A stretch of DNA of 7,849 bases from assembly GCA_014730235.1 (NCBI GenBank), contig WJIO01000297.1, positions 1-7,849 on the forward strand, in the 5' to 3' direction. This DNA is from Candidatus Poribacteria bacterium. GTDB lineage: Bacteria; Poribacteria; DTPJ01; WJIO01. How positions within the stretch are numbered: the stretch's first letter is position 1; every line of letters starts with the position of its first letter. The translations under genes were made by a program, and so were the position numbers. Shown in pieces: positions 1 to 7,849 of this stretch. The notes beneath the pieces are model-generated. The model ran no database searches and had not been told where the DNA came from. It worked only from the letters and a program-made list of their open reading frames with translations.

Positions 1-553
1 TCTTGTTCAATACAGTTTCCTGGTTGTATAAATCTCGTCTGAGTTCGGACAATTCATCATTCAAGAGTTTCACTACATGAAAATGGTCAAATACTATTTG
101 TGCCCGCGGAAGATTGTTTATGACGGCTGAAATATAAGCCGGGGACATATCGATGGATACTGCCTCAATATCAACGTTGTTACGCCTCACTCTTTTCCAA
201 AATGGCTTCAAAGCATCAGCCCCCTTGCCATCACCAACAAAAAGGATAATACCCGTATCAAGGTCTAAGACCACTGTCATGTATTTATGTCCCTTCCTGA
301 CAGCAAATTCATCGATAGCAATATGCCTTACTCCCTTTAAATCAGGAGAAGAGTAATGCTTTTTCAGGTAGGTTTTCTGCACTTCCTTAATCAGATCCCA
401 ACTAACCTTAGGATGGTCTGATACGTCTTTGATTGTAGCAATTCTTGATAGCTCCAGAATATACCGCTTTAGGCTTCTGGTATAGCTCTTCTTTTTTTCA
501 GCAAAAGTCAGGTGTTCCGTATCGGTTCTACCAAGTACACTATCAGATGAGAT
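1..553 (-). pseudogene. ISL3-family transposase, truncated fragment
   Basis: About 184 codons are open on the minus strand, from a stop at 554-556 down to the window edge. The reading contains hallmarks of the ISL3 DDE transposase: a helical segment KKKSYTRSLKRYILELSR, then HIAIDEFAVRKGHKYMTVV (first catalytic Asp in IDEFA), DLDTGIILFVGDGKG, the second Asp in VSIDMSPAY, and the FDHFHVVKLLNDELSELRR signature. The third acidic residue would lie beyond the window edge. There is no start codon between the stop and the conserved region. The usual N-terminal zinc-binding part (about 60-90 residues in the family) is missing, so the gene is 5'-truncated; whether its 3' end is intact cannot be seen. 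No terminal inverted repeat was found near the break. Family assignment is confident; loss of function is inferred from the missing N-terminus. Confidence 0.88.
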
Positions 554-1888: not shown

Positions 1889-2125
1889 CTGATTTTCACT
1901 TTTTTCATACTTGGTGGGGCTCTTTTTGCTATTTTCATTTTCCTTTATTTTTTATTATTCCACTGCTTTGTTTCCTTTGCTCTGTATGACTTTCCGTTCA
2001 TATTCAACATCCGGCAGGTACAGTACATGGAAGGGAACGAAAGCATACGAAGCACGGAAAACTACAGGCAACAGGACCTGACAGGCCTTACCCGGCAGCT
2101 GGAGCTGTTCCATCCGCTGAAATAA
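1889..2125 (+). pseudogene. Unassigned ORF remnant without a start
   Basis: The frame is open between stops at 1886-1888 and 2123-2125, 78 codons with no ATG until 2027. The first 40 residues are very hydrophobic because the DNA is T-rich, so a membrane segment may be an artefact. The last 35 look like real coding sequence: DFPFIFNIRQVQYMEGNESI, then RQQDLTGLTRQLELFHPLK. I do not recognise the family. It is most likely the C-terminal tail of a lost gene left in front of the antitoxin-toxin pair. Confidence 0.3.
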
Positions 2126-2147: not shown

Positions 2148-2172
2148 AAGGAAATATAATTCCTTAAATTTG
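2148..2172 (+). promoter_or_regulatory. Promoter box with overlapping palindrome ahead of the first antitoxin
   Basis: AAGGAA (2148-2153) and TTCCTT (2160-2165) form a perfect inverted repeat around ATATAA. Its last base is the first base of TAAATTTG (2165-2172), a match to the -7 consensus. The only TTG nearby (2138-2140) is 24 nt upstream, longer than usual. A bound repressor here would block the promoter, as expected for antitoxin autoregulation. A strong AAGGAG ribosome site (2176-2181) precedes the ATG by 6 nt. Confidence 0.5.
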
Positions 2173-2187
2173 TAAAAGGAGTCAAAC

Positions 2188-2418
2188 ATGAAAATCATGA
2201 ATATACAGGCAGAAAAGCTCGAGCTGATCAGGATGGTGCTTAATACCAAGAAGCCATCTGTGCTTACAAGCATCCGGAAGATCTTTGAAAAAGAAGAAAA
2301 CATTGACTTTTGGAACACACTCTCCAAGGAAGAAAAGGAAGATATCCATCAAGGCATTGAGGAACTTAACAATGGTGAGAAATATCCTTACGACGAGATA
2401 ATGGCAAAGCACAGGTAA
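2188..2418 (+). CDS. Type II antitoxin of a RelE/ParE pair
   Basis: This is a 76-residue acidic and helical protein. It is homologous to the antitoxin at 4925-5176: both share the core NID(F/W)W.T.S..EK..I..G...L.NGE, here NIDFWNTLSKEEKEDIHQGI at about residues 38-57. The N-terminal half has helices that would provide dimerisation or DNA contacts; the C-terminal half of such antitoxins wraps the toxin. The start at 2188 is fixed by AAGGAG 6 nt upstream and by the Bacteroidota promoter. The stop (TAA 2416-2418) overlaps the first codon of the toxin frame by one base (TAATA), a layout that is TAATG in intact coupled pairs. Unlike the second pair, it has no dedicated XRE regulator gene in front. 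Confidence 0.85.
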   Translation: MKIMNIQAEKLELIRMVLNTKKPSVLTSIRKIFEKEENIDFWNTLSKEEKEDIHQGIEELNNGEKYPYDEIMAKHR

Positions 2419-2714
2419 TAGCCAAAACAGTAGTATTTTCAAAACGATCCAGGAACAGACTGGAGAAACTGCTGGCCTACCTGGAAAATGAATGGTCTCT
2501 GAAGGTAAAAAGTGAATTTATTGAAAAGCTTGACCGGTGTGTTCTCCAGATATCCAAACATCCTGAAAGCTGTCCTGTATCGGAAGAGTTCCCGGGCTTG
2601 TATAAATTTGTTGTAACAAAGCAAACTACCCTGTATTACAGGATCGAAGAAAAAGAAATCCAGGTCATTACCTTTTTTGACAACAGGCAGGATCCAAAAA
2701 AACTGAAACCATAG
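2418..2714 (+). CDS. RelE/ParE-family toxin whose frame begins with ATA
   Basis: The 98-codon frame is uninterrupted and homologous to the toxin at 4638-4928. It starts (ATA)AKTVVFSKRSRNRLEKLL, has a helical middle, then EEFPGLYKFVV, TLYYRIEEKEIQVITFFDNR and QDPKKL. The FFDNRxDP ending is typical of RelE/ParE toxins, which either cleave mRNA at the ribosome or inhibit gyrase; the sequence does not decide which. No ATG, GTG or TTG lies in frame between the upstream stop (TGA 2376-2378) and the conserved region. The codon in the expected start position, overlapping the antitoxin stop, is ATA (2418-2420), one transition from ATG. Either expression is silenced or strongly reduced, or ATA is used as a rare start. 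The remainder shows no frameshift or stop. Confidence 0.75.
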   Translation: MAKTVVFSKRSRNRLEKLLAYLENEWSLKVKSEFIEKLDRCVLQISKHPESCPVSEEFPGLYKFVVTKQTTLYYRIEEKEIQVITFFDNRQDPKKLKP

Positions 2715-3073: not shown

Positions 3074-3105
3074 AAGAAATGGTGGGTCAGGTTTGTGGGG
3101 CTATT

Positions 3106-3227
3106 TAACATAATAACCCCTTATTGGACCCGCCTGACGGTGCTGCAGAAGTCTTGAATGGATCTGGTCAGTAACCCATCGTAAAGCCAGTCTTTGCCTG
3201 CGGGCTACAATAAGGATTATTATGTTA
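3106..3227. repeat. Large imperfect hairpin, possible structured RNA or folded DNA site
   Basis: TAACATAATAA (3106-3116) pairs with 3217-3227. The match continues through CC/GG, TTATTG with CAATAA (3208-3213), and CCCGC (3129-3133) with GCGGG (3200-3204), broken only by small bulges. The stem totals about 24 bp and the apical part is 66 nt. No gene overlaps it. Function unknown. Confidence 0.5.
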
Positions 3228-3249
3228 CTTAGCTTGGGTGAGAGCGTAA

Positions 3250-3398: not shown

Positions 3399-3839
3399 CT
3401 AGAAATCAAAACTATGTTGTTGCTCTTCTATACGCTTTTCCTCTTCTTCCTGGTACTTCACGTACCTTTTTATTACATCTTCGTCGATTCCAACCGTACT
3501 GACAAAATAGCCTCTGGCCCAGAAATGATTTCCCCAGTAGGGTTTCTGCTTCATCTTCGGGTAGCTCTTGAAAAGCTTTATCGCCAGTTTACCTTTCAAT
3601 ACACCCATCAGCGCCGATATAGACAACTTCGGTGGAATCGACAAGACAAGATGAATGTGATCACTTTGTACACTCATCTCCTGAATCTCGCATTTCTTCC
3701 ATTCGCACAGCATTTTTATATCTTCCTCAACAAGCTTCTTGACTTCTCCCGTCAGGATGCGAAAACGGTAATTCGGAACCCAGACAATGTGATATTCACA
3801 CTTATAGACAACATGAGAAAGCTTCTTGTACTTGCCCAT
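3399..3839 (-). CDS. tnpA: IS200/IS605-family Y1 transposase TnpA
   Basis: This is a 146-residue protein close to the usual length of about 140-155. It begins YKKLSHVVYKCEYHIVWVPN as family members do. The HUH metal-binding motif is H61-I-H63 in VQSDHIHLVLSIPP, and the catalytic tyrosine is most likely Y126 in IKRYVKYQ. The family makes single-strand cuts, forming a 5'-phosphotyrosine intermediate, and moves circular single-stranded DNA during replication. All expected landmarks (LMGVLKGK, WGNHFWARGYFVSTVG) are present without a frameshift, so the transposase may be active. No tnpB accessory gene is present, consistent with the IS200 rather than the IS605 layout. The start at 3839 fits the family N-terminus. 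Confidence 0.96.
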   Translation of the reverse strand: MGKYKKLSHVVYKCEYHIVWVPNYRFRILTGEVKKLVEEDIKMLCEWKKCEIQEMSVQSDHIHLVLSIPPKLSISALMGVLKGKLAIKLFKSYPKMKQKPYWGNHFWARGYFVSTVGIDEDVIKRYVKYQEEEEKRIEEQQHSFDF

Positions 3840-4637: not shown

Positions 4638-4928
4638 TCAATACCGATGGTCGCTTCTATTATCGAAGAATGCCACGAGTTCAATGACGTCGTTTTCAAT
4701 TTGATAGATCAGGGAGGTCTGGGGAGTGATCACACAACATCTCAAACCGTTTTTTTTACCGGAAGGCGGGCAAAGGTATTTTTGGGTTTTTAATTTCTCT
4801 ATGAGGCTATCAACCTTTGCTTCAAAATCTTCCGCTTCTTTGATGGTCCACTTCTCCAGGATCTGGGTAAGGGTATTCAGGTAAGACTCTTCAGCTAACG
4901 GGGACCAGAAGATCTGGTATTGCTTCAT
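4638..4928 (-). CDS. RelE/ParE-family toxin
   Basis: This is a 96-residue protein starting MKQYQIFWSPLAEESYLNTL. An amphipathic helix pair follows (ILEKWTIKEAEDFEAKVDSL), then CCVITPQTSLIYQIENDVIE and LVAFFDNRSDH, the FFDNRxDP-like ending of RelE/ParE toxins. It is homologous to the plus-strand toxin at 2418-2714 but has a normal ATG that overlaps the antitoxin stop by 4 nt (ATGA), so translation is coupled to the antitoxin. The family acts as an mRNA interferase or a gyrase poison; the target here is unknown. No broken motif is seen, so it should be functional. It is the last gene of the operon, directly followed by a hairpin terminator. Confidence 0.9.
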   Translation of the reverse strand: MKQYQIFWSPLAEESYLNTLTQILEKWTIKEAEDFEAKVDSLIEKLKTQKYLCPPSGKKNGLRCCVITPQTSLIYQIENDVIELVAFFDNRSDHRY

Positions 4929-5176
4929 TTCCTACCCAGGATTTTGTCAGCTTTTTTCTTGACTTCCTCATGCGATATCCCTTCGCCGTTCTCCAGCTGT
5001 CTCAGTCCGATGTTGATGGCATCCTTTTCATGATCGGATATGGTATCCCACCAATCGATGTTTTTGCCTTTTAAGGTATTGAAATAAGCCTGCACTTTGC
5101 TGAGTATGGTTTCATCGTCGGTCTCAACAATGAGCTTATGTAAATAGTTTTTTATTTCTGCTGTATTTGCGTCCAT
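4925..5176 (-). CDS. Type II antitoxin paired with the RelE/ParE toxin
   Basis: This 83-residue protein is mostly helical. Residues about 1-33 probably form the dimerising part (EIKNYLHKLIVETDDETILS). The conserved NIDWWDTISDHEKDAINIGL block follows, with LENGEGISHEE and a basic C-terminus KKKADKILGRK. It is homologous to the antitoxin at 2188-2418, sharing the NID.W.T.S..EK..I..G...L.NGE pattern. It lies 11 nt after the regulator and overlaps the toxin by 4 nt, the standard order with antitoxin before toxin. The antitoxin protects the cell by binding the toxin. DNA binding may be shared with, or left to, the XRE regulator upstream, as in the three-component paaR-paaA-parE type of operon. Confidence 0.88.
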   Translation of the reverse strand: MDANTAEIKNYLHKLIVETDDETILSKVQAYFNTLKGKNIDWWDTISDHEKDAINIGLRQLENGEGISHEEVKKKADKILGRK

Positions 5177-5187
5177 AAGAATGATAT

Positions 5188-5526
5188 TTAAACCCCGTAG
5201 GCGCTTCTTGCCTTTGCATCCCTTATCAATGCGTCCAGGGTAATTAGAATATGTTCCCTGTCTTTATCCTCCAGCTTTGTGATTGAGTTAAACCGTTCTA
5301 AAAGGGTTTTGTTTTTGAGAGGATTCACAGCGGAGTTTTCCGTTAGATAATCCAAAGACACGCTCAGCACCTTCGCGATTTTGGCAGCAACCTCAATAGA
5401 TGGTTTTACCTCATCTCTCTCATACCGTCCTATTGTGGTAGGTGTAGCTTTAAGGGCCTTAGCCAGTGCTTCCTGCGACATGCCTTTTTCTTTTCTGGCC
5501 TCGATTATTTTGCTTCCAAAGCTCAT
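5188..5526 (-). CDS. XRE/Cro-type regulator of the three-gene toxin-antitoxin operon
   Basis: This is a 112-residue protein with an XRE helix-turn-helix at about residues 5-62 (KIIEARKEKGMSQEALAKAL, then TTIGRYERDEVKPSIEVAAK and IAKVLSVSLDYL). A C-terminal helical tail ends IRDAKARSAYGV. It is a paralogue of the regulator at 1284-1619, matching in both the DNA-binding domain and the unusual C-terminal IRDAK.R.AY end. It is first in an operon with an antitoxin (11 nt gap) and a toxin. A -7 promoter box lies about 50 nt upstream. A role as autorepressor of the addiction operon is inferred from position. Confidence 0.93.
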   Translation of the reverse strand: MSFGSKIIEARKEKGMSQEALAKALKATPTTIGRYERDEVKPSIEVAAKIAKVLSVSLDYLTENSAVNPLKNKTLLERFNSITKLEDKDREHILITLDALIRDAKARSAYGV

Positions 5527-5889: not shown

Positions 5890-6142
5890 CGAGGACCAAA
5901 ATACCTGACAAAGTTCTTCACGGAATACCTTGTCGGAGAAAGGGGGGGCCAGCTCCCATACAATAAGATCGTATAGAGATACTTTTACCCTTGTGCTTAC
6001 TTATATGGACAAAGTCAGACATATAGCAGCTGATAGGTTGACTCTCACCCATTTTTACCGGGAAACCATTCTGGACTTCCTTGACTGGCTCCAGAAAGAC
6101 CGGAGATGTACAAATTCTACCAGAAACCAGCGCCTGGCCGCC
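5890..6142 (+). pseudogene. Tyrosine recombinase, N-terminal core-binding fragment with frameshift
   Basis: This is the SAM-like core-binding domain of a tyrosine recombinase. It reads YLTKFFTEYLVGERG in one frame, then ASSHTIRSYRDTFTLVLTYM, ILDFLDWLQKDRR and NSTRNQRLAA in the next. The two frames meet in a run of seven G (just after 5940); six would restore a single frame. The same pattern (FFT..L...RGAS.HTI.SYRDTF...RN.RLAA) begins many XerC/D-like and RIT-type recombinases. The catalytic domain with the R-H-R-Y residues is absent because after RLAA the frame passes directly into ParB-like sequence. No ATG precedes the first frame, so the 5' end is damaged too. An in-frame TTG at 5930 opens the second frame. 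Confidence 0.75.
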
Positions 6143-6463
6143 GCCGAGGTGCTTGTTATGGACACCCTTGAATGCCGTTTACTGGAAGTAGATGAGTCCC
6201 AGGCCAAGGTTATGCTGTTGAGTTATAACCGCACGAACCAGTCCATGGAGGTGTGGGAAGAGGCAATGATATTACAGTCTCTTTTGGAGGGTGGTGATCT
6301 GGACCAGCGCAGGTTGGCAAAGATCGTTGGCCATAGTCCTTCGTGGGTAAGCCGGCGCCTGTCTCTGATCAGCAAGGTCGATGAAGAGATTTGCTCTGAT
6401 ATCAGGATGGGAGTTCTGAGCAGCAGTCATGCACGGGCCCTTATGCGGTTGCCGCGCGGCAAT
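6131..6463 (+). pseudogene. ParB/Spo0J-like protein, internal fragment
   Basis: About 110 residues are fused in frame to the recombinase piece. They read AAEVLVMDTLECRLLEVDES, AKVMLLSYNRTNQSMEVWEE, a helix-turn-helix GGDLDQRRLAKIVGHSPSWV and SRRLSLISKVDEE, then SSHARALMRLPRGN. This is the end of the ParB nuclease-like domain followed by the DNA-binding region; similar ParB-like genes occur in mobile elements. The N-terminal part and everything after LPRGN are missing. The junction with the recombinase lies at a shared RLAA (6131-6142), as expected for recombination at short homology. The plus frame continues to 6676 through antisense sequence, so the apparent 248-residue ORF is not a real protein. 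Confidence 0.7.
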
Positions 6464-6621
6464 CGATCCTTCTCAATCTTCTTTACAGCCTGCTCAAAAG
6501 GAATGATCTCATCGTCCCGGGCTTTGGCTGCATCATATGCCACGATATCATCGATCTCTTCCAGTTGTTCCAGCATCTTGTTATACTGGTCAATGGACAG
6601 CAGAACGGCTATCCTGTGGCT
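6427..6621 (-). pseudogene. Phd/YefM-like antitoxin, truncated at its N-terminus
   Basis: The minus strand reads RIAVLLSIDQYNKMLEQLEE, IDDIVAYDAAKARDDEIIPF and EQAVKKIEKDR, a close fit to Phd/YefM-type antitoxins (K.AVLLSIDEY..LLE.LED...YDEAKA...PF..A..EIE). In this family the first 15-20 residues carry a strand pair that precedes RIAVL. Here that part is absent and the frame is closed by TAA at 6624-6622, with no ATG. After KDR the frame continues into the inverse of the ParB fragment (LPRGN...) and stops at 6429-6427, so the true C-terminus is probably at about 6463. No cognate toxin is next to it. It looks like a relic moved into the ParB gene piece. Confidence 0.6.
6449..6462. repeat. 14-bp perfect palindrome at a gene-fragment junction
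   Basis: TTGCCGCGCGGCAA (6449-6462) is its own reverse complement. It is the last conserved part (LPRGN) of the ParB fragment on the plus strand and abuts the C-terminus of the antitoxin fragment on the minus strand. Confidence 0.6.
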
Positions 6622-6754
6622 TTACTGCTCCCATCACTGCCTGGCTGTCATGATTGCACCGAAGCAATGTACTTAATAAGTTGAGAATGCTTTTCTGATC
6701 AGACTGAGACATCCTCAGTTCTTTGTGCAGCGCTGCTGCTTTCTTACTGATTAG
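6590..6754 (-). pseudogene. Unidentified open frame upstream of the antitoxin relic
   Basis: A 54-codon frame reads LISKKAAALHKELRMSQSDQ, then SILNLLSTLLRCNHDSQAVM, ending at 6592-6590 after overlapping the antitoxin relic in another frame. The helical composition suggests genuine former coding sequence, possibly a C-terminal piece of a DNA-binding or ParB-like protein, but I cannot identify it. Confidence 0.22.
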
Positions 6755-6810: not shown

Positions 6811-7849
6811 ATGAGATTGGTTTTGTTCTGTCTGCTTTTTCTCATTCAGCCTGGCCTCGTGGCCCAGGAAGAGCTGAGCACAGACAACAAACGGGCCATC
6901 GGTCACTATGAAGCGGGCAGGCGGCAGTACTTGCTGCGCAACTACGGAAAGGCCGTGGCCGAATTGAAAAAGGCCATTGAGTATGCACCTGCCTTCATTG
7001 AAGCCTACCTCATGGTGGGGCAGACTTATGCGGATGCCGGACAAACGGAAGCTTCACTGGATGCATACCAGCATGCCGTGGATATCGATCCCGAATTTTT
7101 CCCGAATGCCTTTTTTTTCATGGCCGGCCATGCCCATCAGCTCGGCCGGTATGAAGAGGCGGCAGACTACTACGAAACATTCCTCGAGACCGGCCCTGTA
7201 AATCCCCGTTTGAGAGAGGCATCTGAAAAGGGACTGGTCAATGCACGCTTTGCGGAGACGGCCGAAAAGAACCCGGTGGAATTTGAACCGGTCAATCTGG
7301 GTCCCAATATCAACACCCCCTATGATGAATACTGGCCCAGCCTGTCAGCAGATGAGGAGATGCTGGTATTCACCACCCTGCTGCCCATTGACAGGATCAA
7401 TCCCCACCTCAGATCTCGAAAACAGGAGGACCTTTATTTCAGCCGGTTTCAGAACGGGCAATGGACACAGGCCCGCAATGTGGGGGCACCCCTCAACACC
7501 CCGGACAATGAGGGTGCGCAATCCATTTCCGGAGACGGGAATTTCATGGTTTTTACCGGTTGCGGACGTGCGGAGGGGTATGGGCTATGCGATCTTTACC
7601 TGTCCGAGAACCGGAAAGGTGTATGGAGCATCCCGAGGAACATGGGACCGGTGATCAATACACGTCACAGTGAAAAGCAACCCTCACTTTCCTCCGACGG
7701 CCGGATACTTTACTTCGCAAGCGACCGTCCGGGCGGGAAGGGGAAATACGATATATGGGTGACTGAGCGGAAGCCCGGAGGAGGCTGGACCACCCCTGAG
7801 AATCTGGGGGACAGCATCAACACCAGTGATCTGGATCAGTCACCTTTCA
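6811..7849 (+). CDS. Secreted TPR and PD40 beta-propeller protein (PorE/OmpA-type), partial
   Basis: 346 residues are visible and the frame runs off the window. A signal peptide (MRLVLFCLLFLIQPGLVAQ) with a likely cut after VAQ is followed by about three TPR units (residues 28-129), for example KAVAELKKAIEYAP and YEEAADYYETFLE. From about 160, PD40-type propeller repeats follow: PSLSADEEMLVFTT, QSISGDGNFMVFTG, PSLSSDGRILYFASDRPGG with YDIWVTER. The spacer N-(L/V/M)-G-x-x-(I/L)-N-T recurs four times (162, 223, 277, 331). Full-length relatives add a peptidase-like regulatory domain and a C-terminal OmpA domain that binds peptidoglycan; PorE of the type IX secretion system has this plan, but many paralogues exist. 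It is probably periplasmic or outer-membrane associated. The start at 6811 gives the signal peptide; nearby ATGs at 6789 and 6796 are in closed or different frames. Its GC-richer composition marks the end of the mobile region. Confidence 0.88.
   Translation, partial: MRLVLFCLLFLIQPGLVAQEELSTDNKRAIGHYEAGRRQYLLRNYGKAVAELKKAIEYAPAFIEAYLMVGQTYADAGQTEASLDAYQHAVDIDPEFFPNAFFFMAGHAHQLGRYEEAADYYETFLETGPVNPRLREASEKGLVNARFAETAEKNPVEFEPVNLGPNINTPYDEYWPSLSADEEMLVFTTLLPIDRINPHLRSRKQEDLYFSRFQNGQWTQARNVGAPLNTPDNEGAQSISGDGNFMVFTGCGRAEGYGLCDLYLSENRKGVWSIPRNMGPVINTRHSEKQPSLSSDGRILYFASDRPGGKGKYDIWVTERKPGGGWTTPENLGDSINTSDLDQSPF

Follow-up and report, generated by a model that had tools for sequence, protein, structure and literature searches.

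Layout of the locus

The window analysed here is the entire 7,849-nucleotide contig C236 of a 451-contig metagenome-assembled genome (MAG). Within it, a small intact gene overlaps a second frame by one base, and the following features bear on this pair:

2165..2172 (+), promoter-like element TAAATTTG before the antitoxin gene, conserved in the closest relative (L005)
2176..2181 (+), Shine-Dalgarno-like AAGGAG, separated by 6 nt from the antitoxin ATG
2188..2418 (+), intact antitoxin gene of 76 aa, with homology to the ORF upstream of the toxin in most loci of the family
2418..2420 (+), ATA where the toxin start is expected; the closest relative and all 25 intact homologues have ATG here
2418..2714 (+), predicted ParE/RelE-fold toxin frame, 98 sense codons plus stop, complete save for its start codon
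2598..2600 (+), TTG (codon 61), the earliest common start codon of the toxin frame, inside the predicted fold

The antitoxin stop codon TAA (2416-2418) overlaps the toxin-frame codon ATA (2418-2420), and the junction (2416-2420) thus reads TAATA. The original prediction held that TAATG was to be expected here, that the toxin frame is otherwise complete, and that no ATG, GTG or TTG lies in frame ahead of its conserved part. All three statements were borne out: TAATG is present in L005 and in 8 of the 25 intact homologues, the frame runs through 98 sense codons to a stop at 2712-2714 and ends in FFDNRQDPKKLKP, and its first common start codon is the TTG of codon 61. Upstream, the frame is closed by a TGA at 2376-2378, and the codons from there to the ATA (GAA ATA TCC TTA CGA CGA GAT AAT GGC AAA GCA CAG GTA) include no ATG, GTG or TTG. 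Codon 61 lies past beta-1 and both helices of the predicted toxin fold; initiation there cannot rescue the toxin because these elements would be lost. With no ATG, GTG or TTG before that codon, an alternative in-frame start was rejected, and the pair lacks the usable toxin start codon of a working module.

The expression signals of the antitoxin gene appear intact. The AAGGAG has a computed duplex energy of -8.4 kcal/mol with an assumed anti-Shine-Dalgarno sequence (a 16S pattern search for the genome's own gave no match), and TAAATTTG is what we take to be a Bacteroidota-type -7 promoter-like element (consensus TAnnTTTG). A second in-frame ATG occurs at codon 4 (2188-2198), where most of the homologous antitoxins, of 73 aa, begin; Shine-Dalgarno spacing favours the first. 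The toxin ATA has no usable Shine-Dalgarno, the sole candidate being an AGG at 2413-2415 that ends 2 nt before it.

A predicted toxin of the ParE/RelE superfamily

The toxin frame matches PF05016 (ParE_toxin) over residues 5-92 (E 1.5e-8, 35.6 bits vs a cutoff of 23), covering positions 1-88 of the 89-position profile; because the match exceeds the gathering score, the frame is no chance ORF. An AlphaFold2 model built from 27 sequences (mean pLDDT 91) places strands and helices in the ParE/RelE order (E4-7, H9-26, H28-47, E62-65, E70-76, E80-88), that is, beta-1, a helical hairpin and an antiparallel sheet. The top Foldseek match of this model is ParE2 of PaaA2-ParE2 (TM-score 0.86, rmsd 1.5). 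Moreover, the four residues invariant in the toxin alignment, F34, Y74, D88 and R90, are all kept in the window. By profile and model, then, the frame encodes a ParE/RelE-fold protein, a predicted toxin. A search of a defence library gave no match, and the antitoxin matched no Pfam family. An upstream partner ORF is nonetheless present at the junction in every one of the 25 intact homologues, and most of these ORFs can be recognised as homologues of the window antitoxin; the pair of toxin and small, overlapping upstream gene is conserved.

The ATA is a derived change

Among 84,980 species genomes, the best match to the pair was L005 (DAOUVF010000339.1), from a MAG labelled Bacteroides sp. CSMAG_842. 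It shares 81% DNA identity with the window from 2144 to 2580 (437 bp), a stretch that spans the junction, and there it reads TAATG. Further loci were gathered from genomes related to that of L005, giving 34 homologues in total, including L005 and an own-genome paralogue (L003). The toxin frame is intact in 25 of the 34 and starts with ATG in every one of these 25; most of the junctions other than TAATG are other short overlaps or gaps. ATA stands at the toxin start in none of the 34. The ATA of the window is therefore a derived change, L005 and all intact homologues having ATG, with direct bearing on its polarity coming from one close relative only and the other, intact ones being 28-63% identical in protein. 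No homologue was found outside the window's own genome among 193 relatives and 84 phylum members of the bin, nor was the module found in viral contigs, phages or plasmids; one viral contig (L039) that matched a degenerate junction pattern was rejected as unrelated lysine-rich coding sequence.

The alignment with closest relatives that the original prediction had called for thus returns ATG elsewhere and no conservation of ATA. That prediction had offered two readings. The first, a recent loss of the start by a single G-to-A change, is supported by ATG in the relatives and by constraint on the frame (below). The second, a deliberate AUA start, fails as a conserved trait: no relative carries ATA, no Shine-Dalgarno compensates for it, and a conserved AUA start was rejected on the first of these grounds.

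Over codons 2-53 of the toxin, 14 synonymous and 6 non-synonymous changes separate the window from L005 (dN/dS 0.089); the corresponding dN/dS for the antitoxin is 0.077. Taking the antitoxin's constraint as the baseline, a non-synonymous count as low as 6 is improbable (P about 0.05) if 10% of the path is neutral, so that at most about 10% of the path joining the two loci was neutral, as a rough Poisson bound with no codon-model fit. Since constraint on the toxin is close to that on the antitoxin, the loss of the start would be recent. More exactly, the constraint on codons 2-53 implies either that the window ATA and the L005 truncation are both recent relative to the divergence of the two loci, or that the window toxin is still under selection; it fits equally a toxin still made from AUA.

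Toxins are often broken in this family

The toxin is broken in 9 of the 34 homologues:

Single nonsense change, rest of the toxin frame intact: L011, L016, L017, L026, L033
Frameshift: L027
Truncation: L005
Remnant: L018
Deletion: L022

The L005 toxin is cut after about 54 codons, where its similarity to the window ends. A full-length ORF in the antitoxin position persists upstream in six of the nine broken loci (L005, L011, L016, L026, L027 and L033); of the other three, L017 and L022 have it shortened or interrupted, and L018 yielded no antitoxin. Neither of the window's two closest relatives, L005 and L018, has an intact toxin, and their lesions are unlike that of the window. L016 and L033 share the site of their stop, a conserved Gln of the TKQ motif. 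On these comparisons, the window most likely adds to the cases in which the toxin of a known kind of module decays and the antitoxin is retained.

Source and surroundings of the contig

The window module is surrounded by gene fragments, and other features on the contig include the following:

2-553 (-), presumably part of an ISL3-like transposase, cut off by the contig end
824-1619 (-), HTH gene similar to that at 5188-5526, with the same C-terminal RDAKxRxAY motif, then an 81-aa ORF and one with DUF2283; together perhaps another toxin-antitoxin-like module
1979-2125 (+), XerC-like tyrosine recombinase, C-terminal remnant only (SIRSTENYRQQDLTGLTRQLELFHPLK), a short way upstream of the antitoxin gene
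2812-2908 and 3100-3233, imperfect palindromes
3399-3839 (-), intact IS200-like Y1 transposase (PF01797)
4638-5526 (-), three-gene operon: HTH regulator 5188-5526, antitoxin 4925-5176, ParE/RelE-like toxin 4638-4928 with an ATG start
5930-6676 (+), N-terminal part of a tyrosine integrase fused with a ParB-type HTH segment, apparently through a deletion
6811-7848, TPR-PD40 gene

The gene order of the operon at 4638-5526 resembles paaR2-paaA2-parE2. The palindromes, of about 100-140 nt, recur in L003 (1011-1147 and 1226-1357), and so adjoin toxin-antitoxin pairs on two contigs; their arms are like GCTATTTAACATAAT...ATTATGTTAAATAGC, and the ends of their cores, RYYYAAC / GTTRRRY, are reminiscent of integron attC sites. 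An exact-pattern search for the arms matched only two arms on C170, the contig of L003. The paralogous pair on C170 also has the same XerC-like neighbour (L003 2070-2300, -).

No strong relative of the TPR-PD40 gene turned up in the other 83 genomes of the bin's phylum; the gene does occur in 76 of the 99 genomes examined that are related to that of L005, the best match (56% identity) being in L005's nearest. This comparison makes it probable that the contig is Bacteroidota DNA placed in the wrong bin and that it stems from a relative of the L005 host. For that reason, proof would be needed before the C170 paralogue is counted as another copy within one cell.

Loss of the toxin start and the alternatives

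We favour the reading, at a probability of roughly 0.7, that the pair is a type II module of the ParE/RelE superfamily whose toxin was recently silenced by an ATG-to-ATA change, with the antitoxin and its signals left intact. The evidence is the sequence itself, the derived ATA, a frame that is otherwise intact, constraint on toxin and antitoxin genes alike and the frequency with which the toxin alone is broken in the family. In the normal state, a ribosome ending the antitoxin at its TAA would re-initiate at the overlapping toxin ATG. With ATA and no Shine-Dalgarno, toxin initiation would fall to a trace or to none, and this loss may have been neutral or favoured because the antitoxin remained. 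If so, the toxin is seen at the onset of its loss, when a single base has changed and both the frame and the antitoxin are still constrained.

A second reading, which we regard as unlikely, is that a little toxin is still produced, ribosomes re-initiating at the AUA once they have ended the antitoxin, and that the module works with a lowered toxin:antitoxin ratio. The complete and constrained frame agrees with it, and NCBI table 11 includes ATA among possible starts. Bacterial AUA starts have indeed been documented: in S. aureus, AUA and AUU starts give about 10% of AUG expression, the ccpN AUA reaching up to 30% in rich medium, and the AUA starts of ccpN and citZ lie at about 10-30% of AUG (PMC13009471). 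However, ATA is found in none of the homologues, and the AGG 2 nt from the ATA leaves the codon without a spaced Shine-Dalgarno. In addition, the switches reported from 61,358 reconstructed ancestral AUG starts were to GUG, UUG, CUG (2) and AUU (1), with AUA not among them, a count biased by annotation habits (PMC5622118). A literature search for AUA starts in toxin genes found none. Somewhat more doubtful is the specific form in which the locus moved to AUA recently and keeps an active toxin through stop-coupled re-initiation with no Shine-Dalgarno; were it true, it would be a natural tuning of the toxin:antitoxin ratio by one start-codon base.

We give only a small chance to the A at 2420 being an error of assembly or base calling, or having entered the metagenome-assembled contig from a minority strain, with the true or dominant gene starting at ATG. 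The 7.8 kb contig does come from a 451-contig MAG in which it looks mis-binned, and L005 carries ATG. Isolated consensus substitution errors are rare, however, and one would have to hit exactly this codon; moreover, the nearby small genes (the antitoxin at 2188-2418, the HTH genes and the second toxin-antitoxin pair) are intact, and single-change losses of the toxin are common in the family.

Translation of the toxin by another route, whether by a -1 shift from the antitoxin into the toxin frame or from a non-AUG codon within the latter, is very improbable: the toxin frame is open from 2379 and both frames are open from 2379 to 2415, which makes a fusion possible in principle, but inspection by eye revealed no slippery heptamer in the antitoxin frame of the overlap (on which ground a programmed -1 frameshift was rejected), a start beyond about codon 4 would remove beta-1 (residues 4-7), and, as the homologues use ATG at this point, no such route was needed ancestrally.

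Comparison with known systems

By fold, the nearest known system is PaaA2-ParE2 (PDB 5czf, 5cw7). The window toxin shares with ParE2 the PF05016 domain and the fold noted above, and its antitoxin gene likewise lies upstream with a short overlap. It differs in its ATA start, in a sequence identity of about 22% and in an antitoxin without a Pfam family.

The likeness to naturally AUA- or AUU-initiated genes of S. aureus, infC, ccpN and citZ, in which such starts limit expression, lies in an AUA that opens a complete frame (PMC13009471). For infC, cvfC1 and ccpN the authors invoke an extended Shine-Dalgarno, whereas the window toxin, judged against the standard anti-Shine-Dalgarno, has no strong and properly spaced one. 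The start codons of cvfC1 and ccpN are described as conserved, and the citZ AUA is conserved in S. aureus strains of the NCTC 8325 lineage (PMC13009471); in contrast, the non-canonical start of the window is conserved among none of its relatives.

If the toxin is silenced, as we favour, the locus introduces no new kind of system or mechanism and would be ordinary toxin-antitoxin decay. The window and those relatives in which one nonsense or frameshift change has broken the toxin beside an intact antitoxin would then form a small comparative set for how toxins die first. Decay by deletion and nonsense mutation is a course already known for such modules (PMC7167474). A parallel is the decaying chromosomal module ccdO157 of E. 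coli (Mine et al. 2009, cited in PMC7167474): there too, by that review, the toxin was inactivated by a point change and the antitoxin kept while the module is slowly lost. The lesion in the window differs from those described there in falling in the start codon, rather than being a nonsense change or a deletion.
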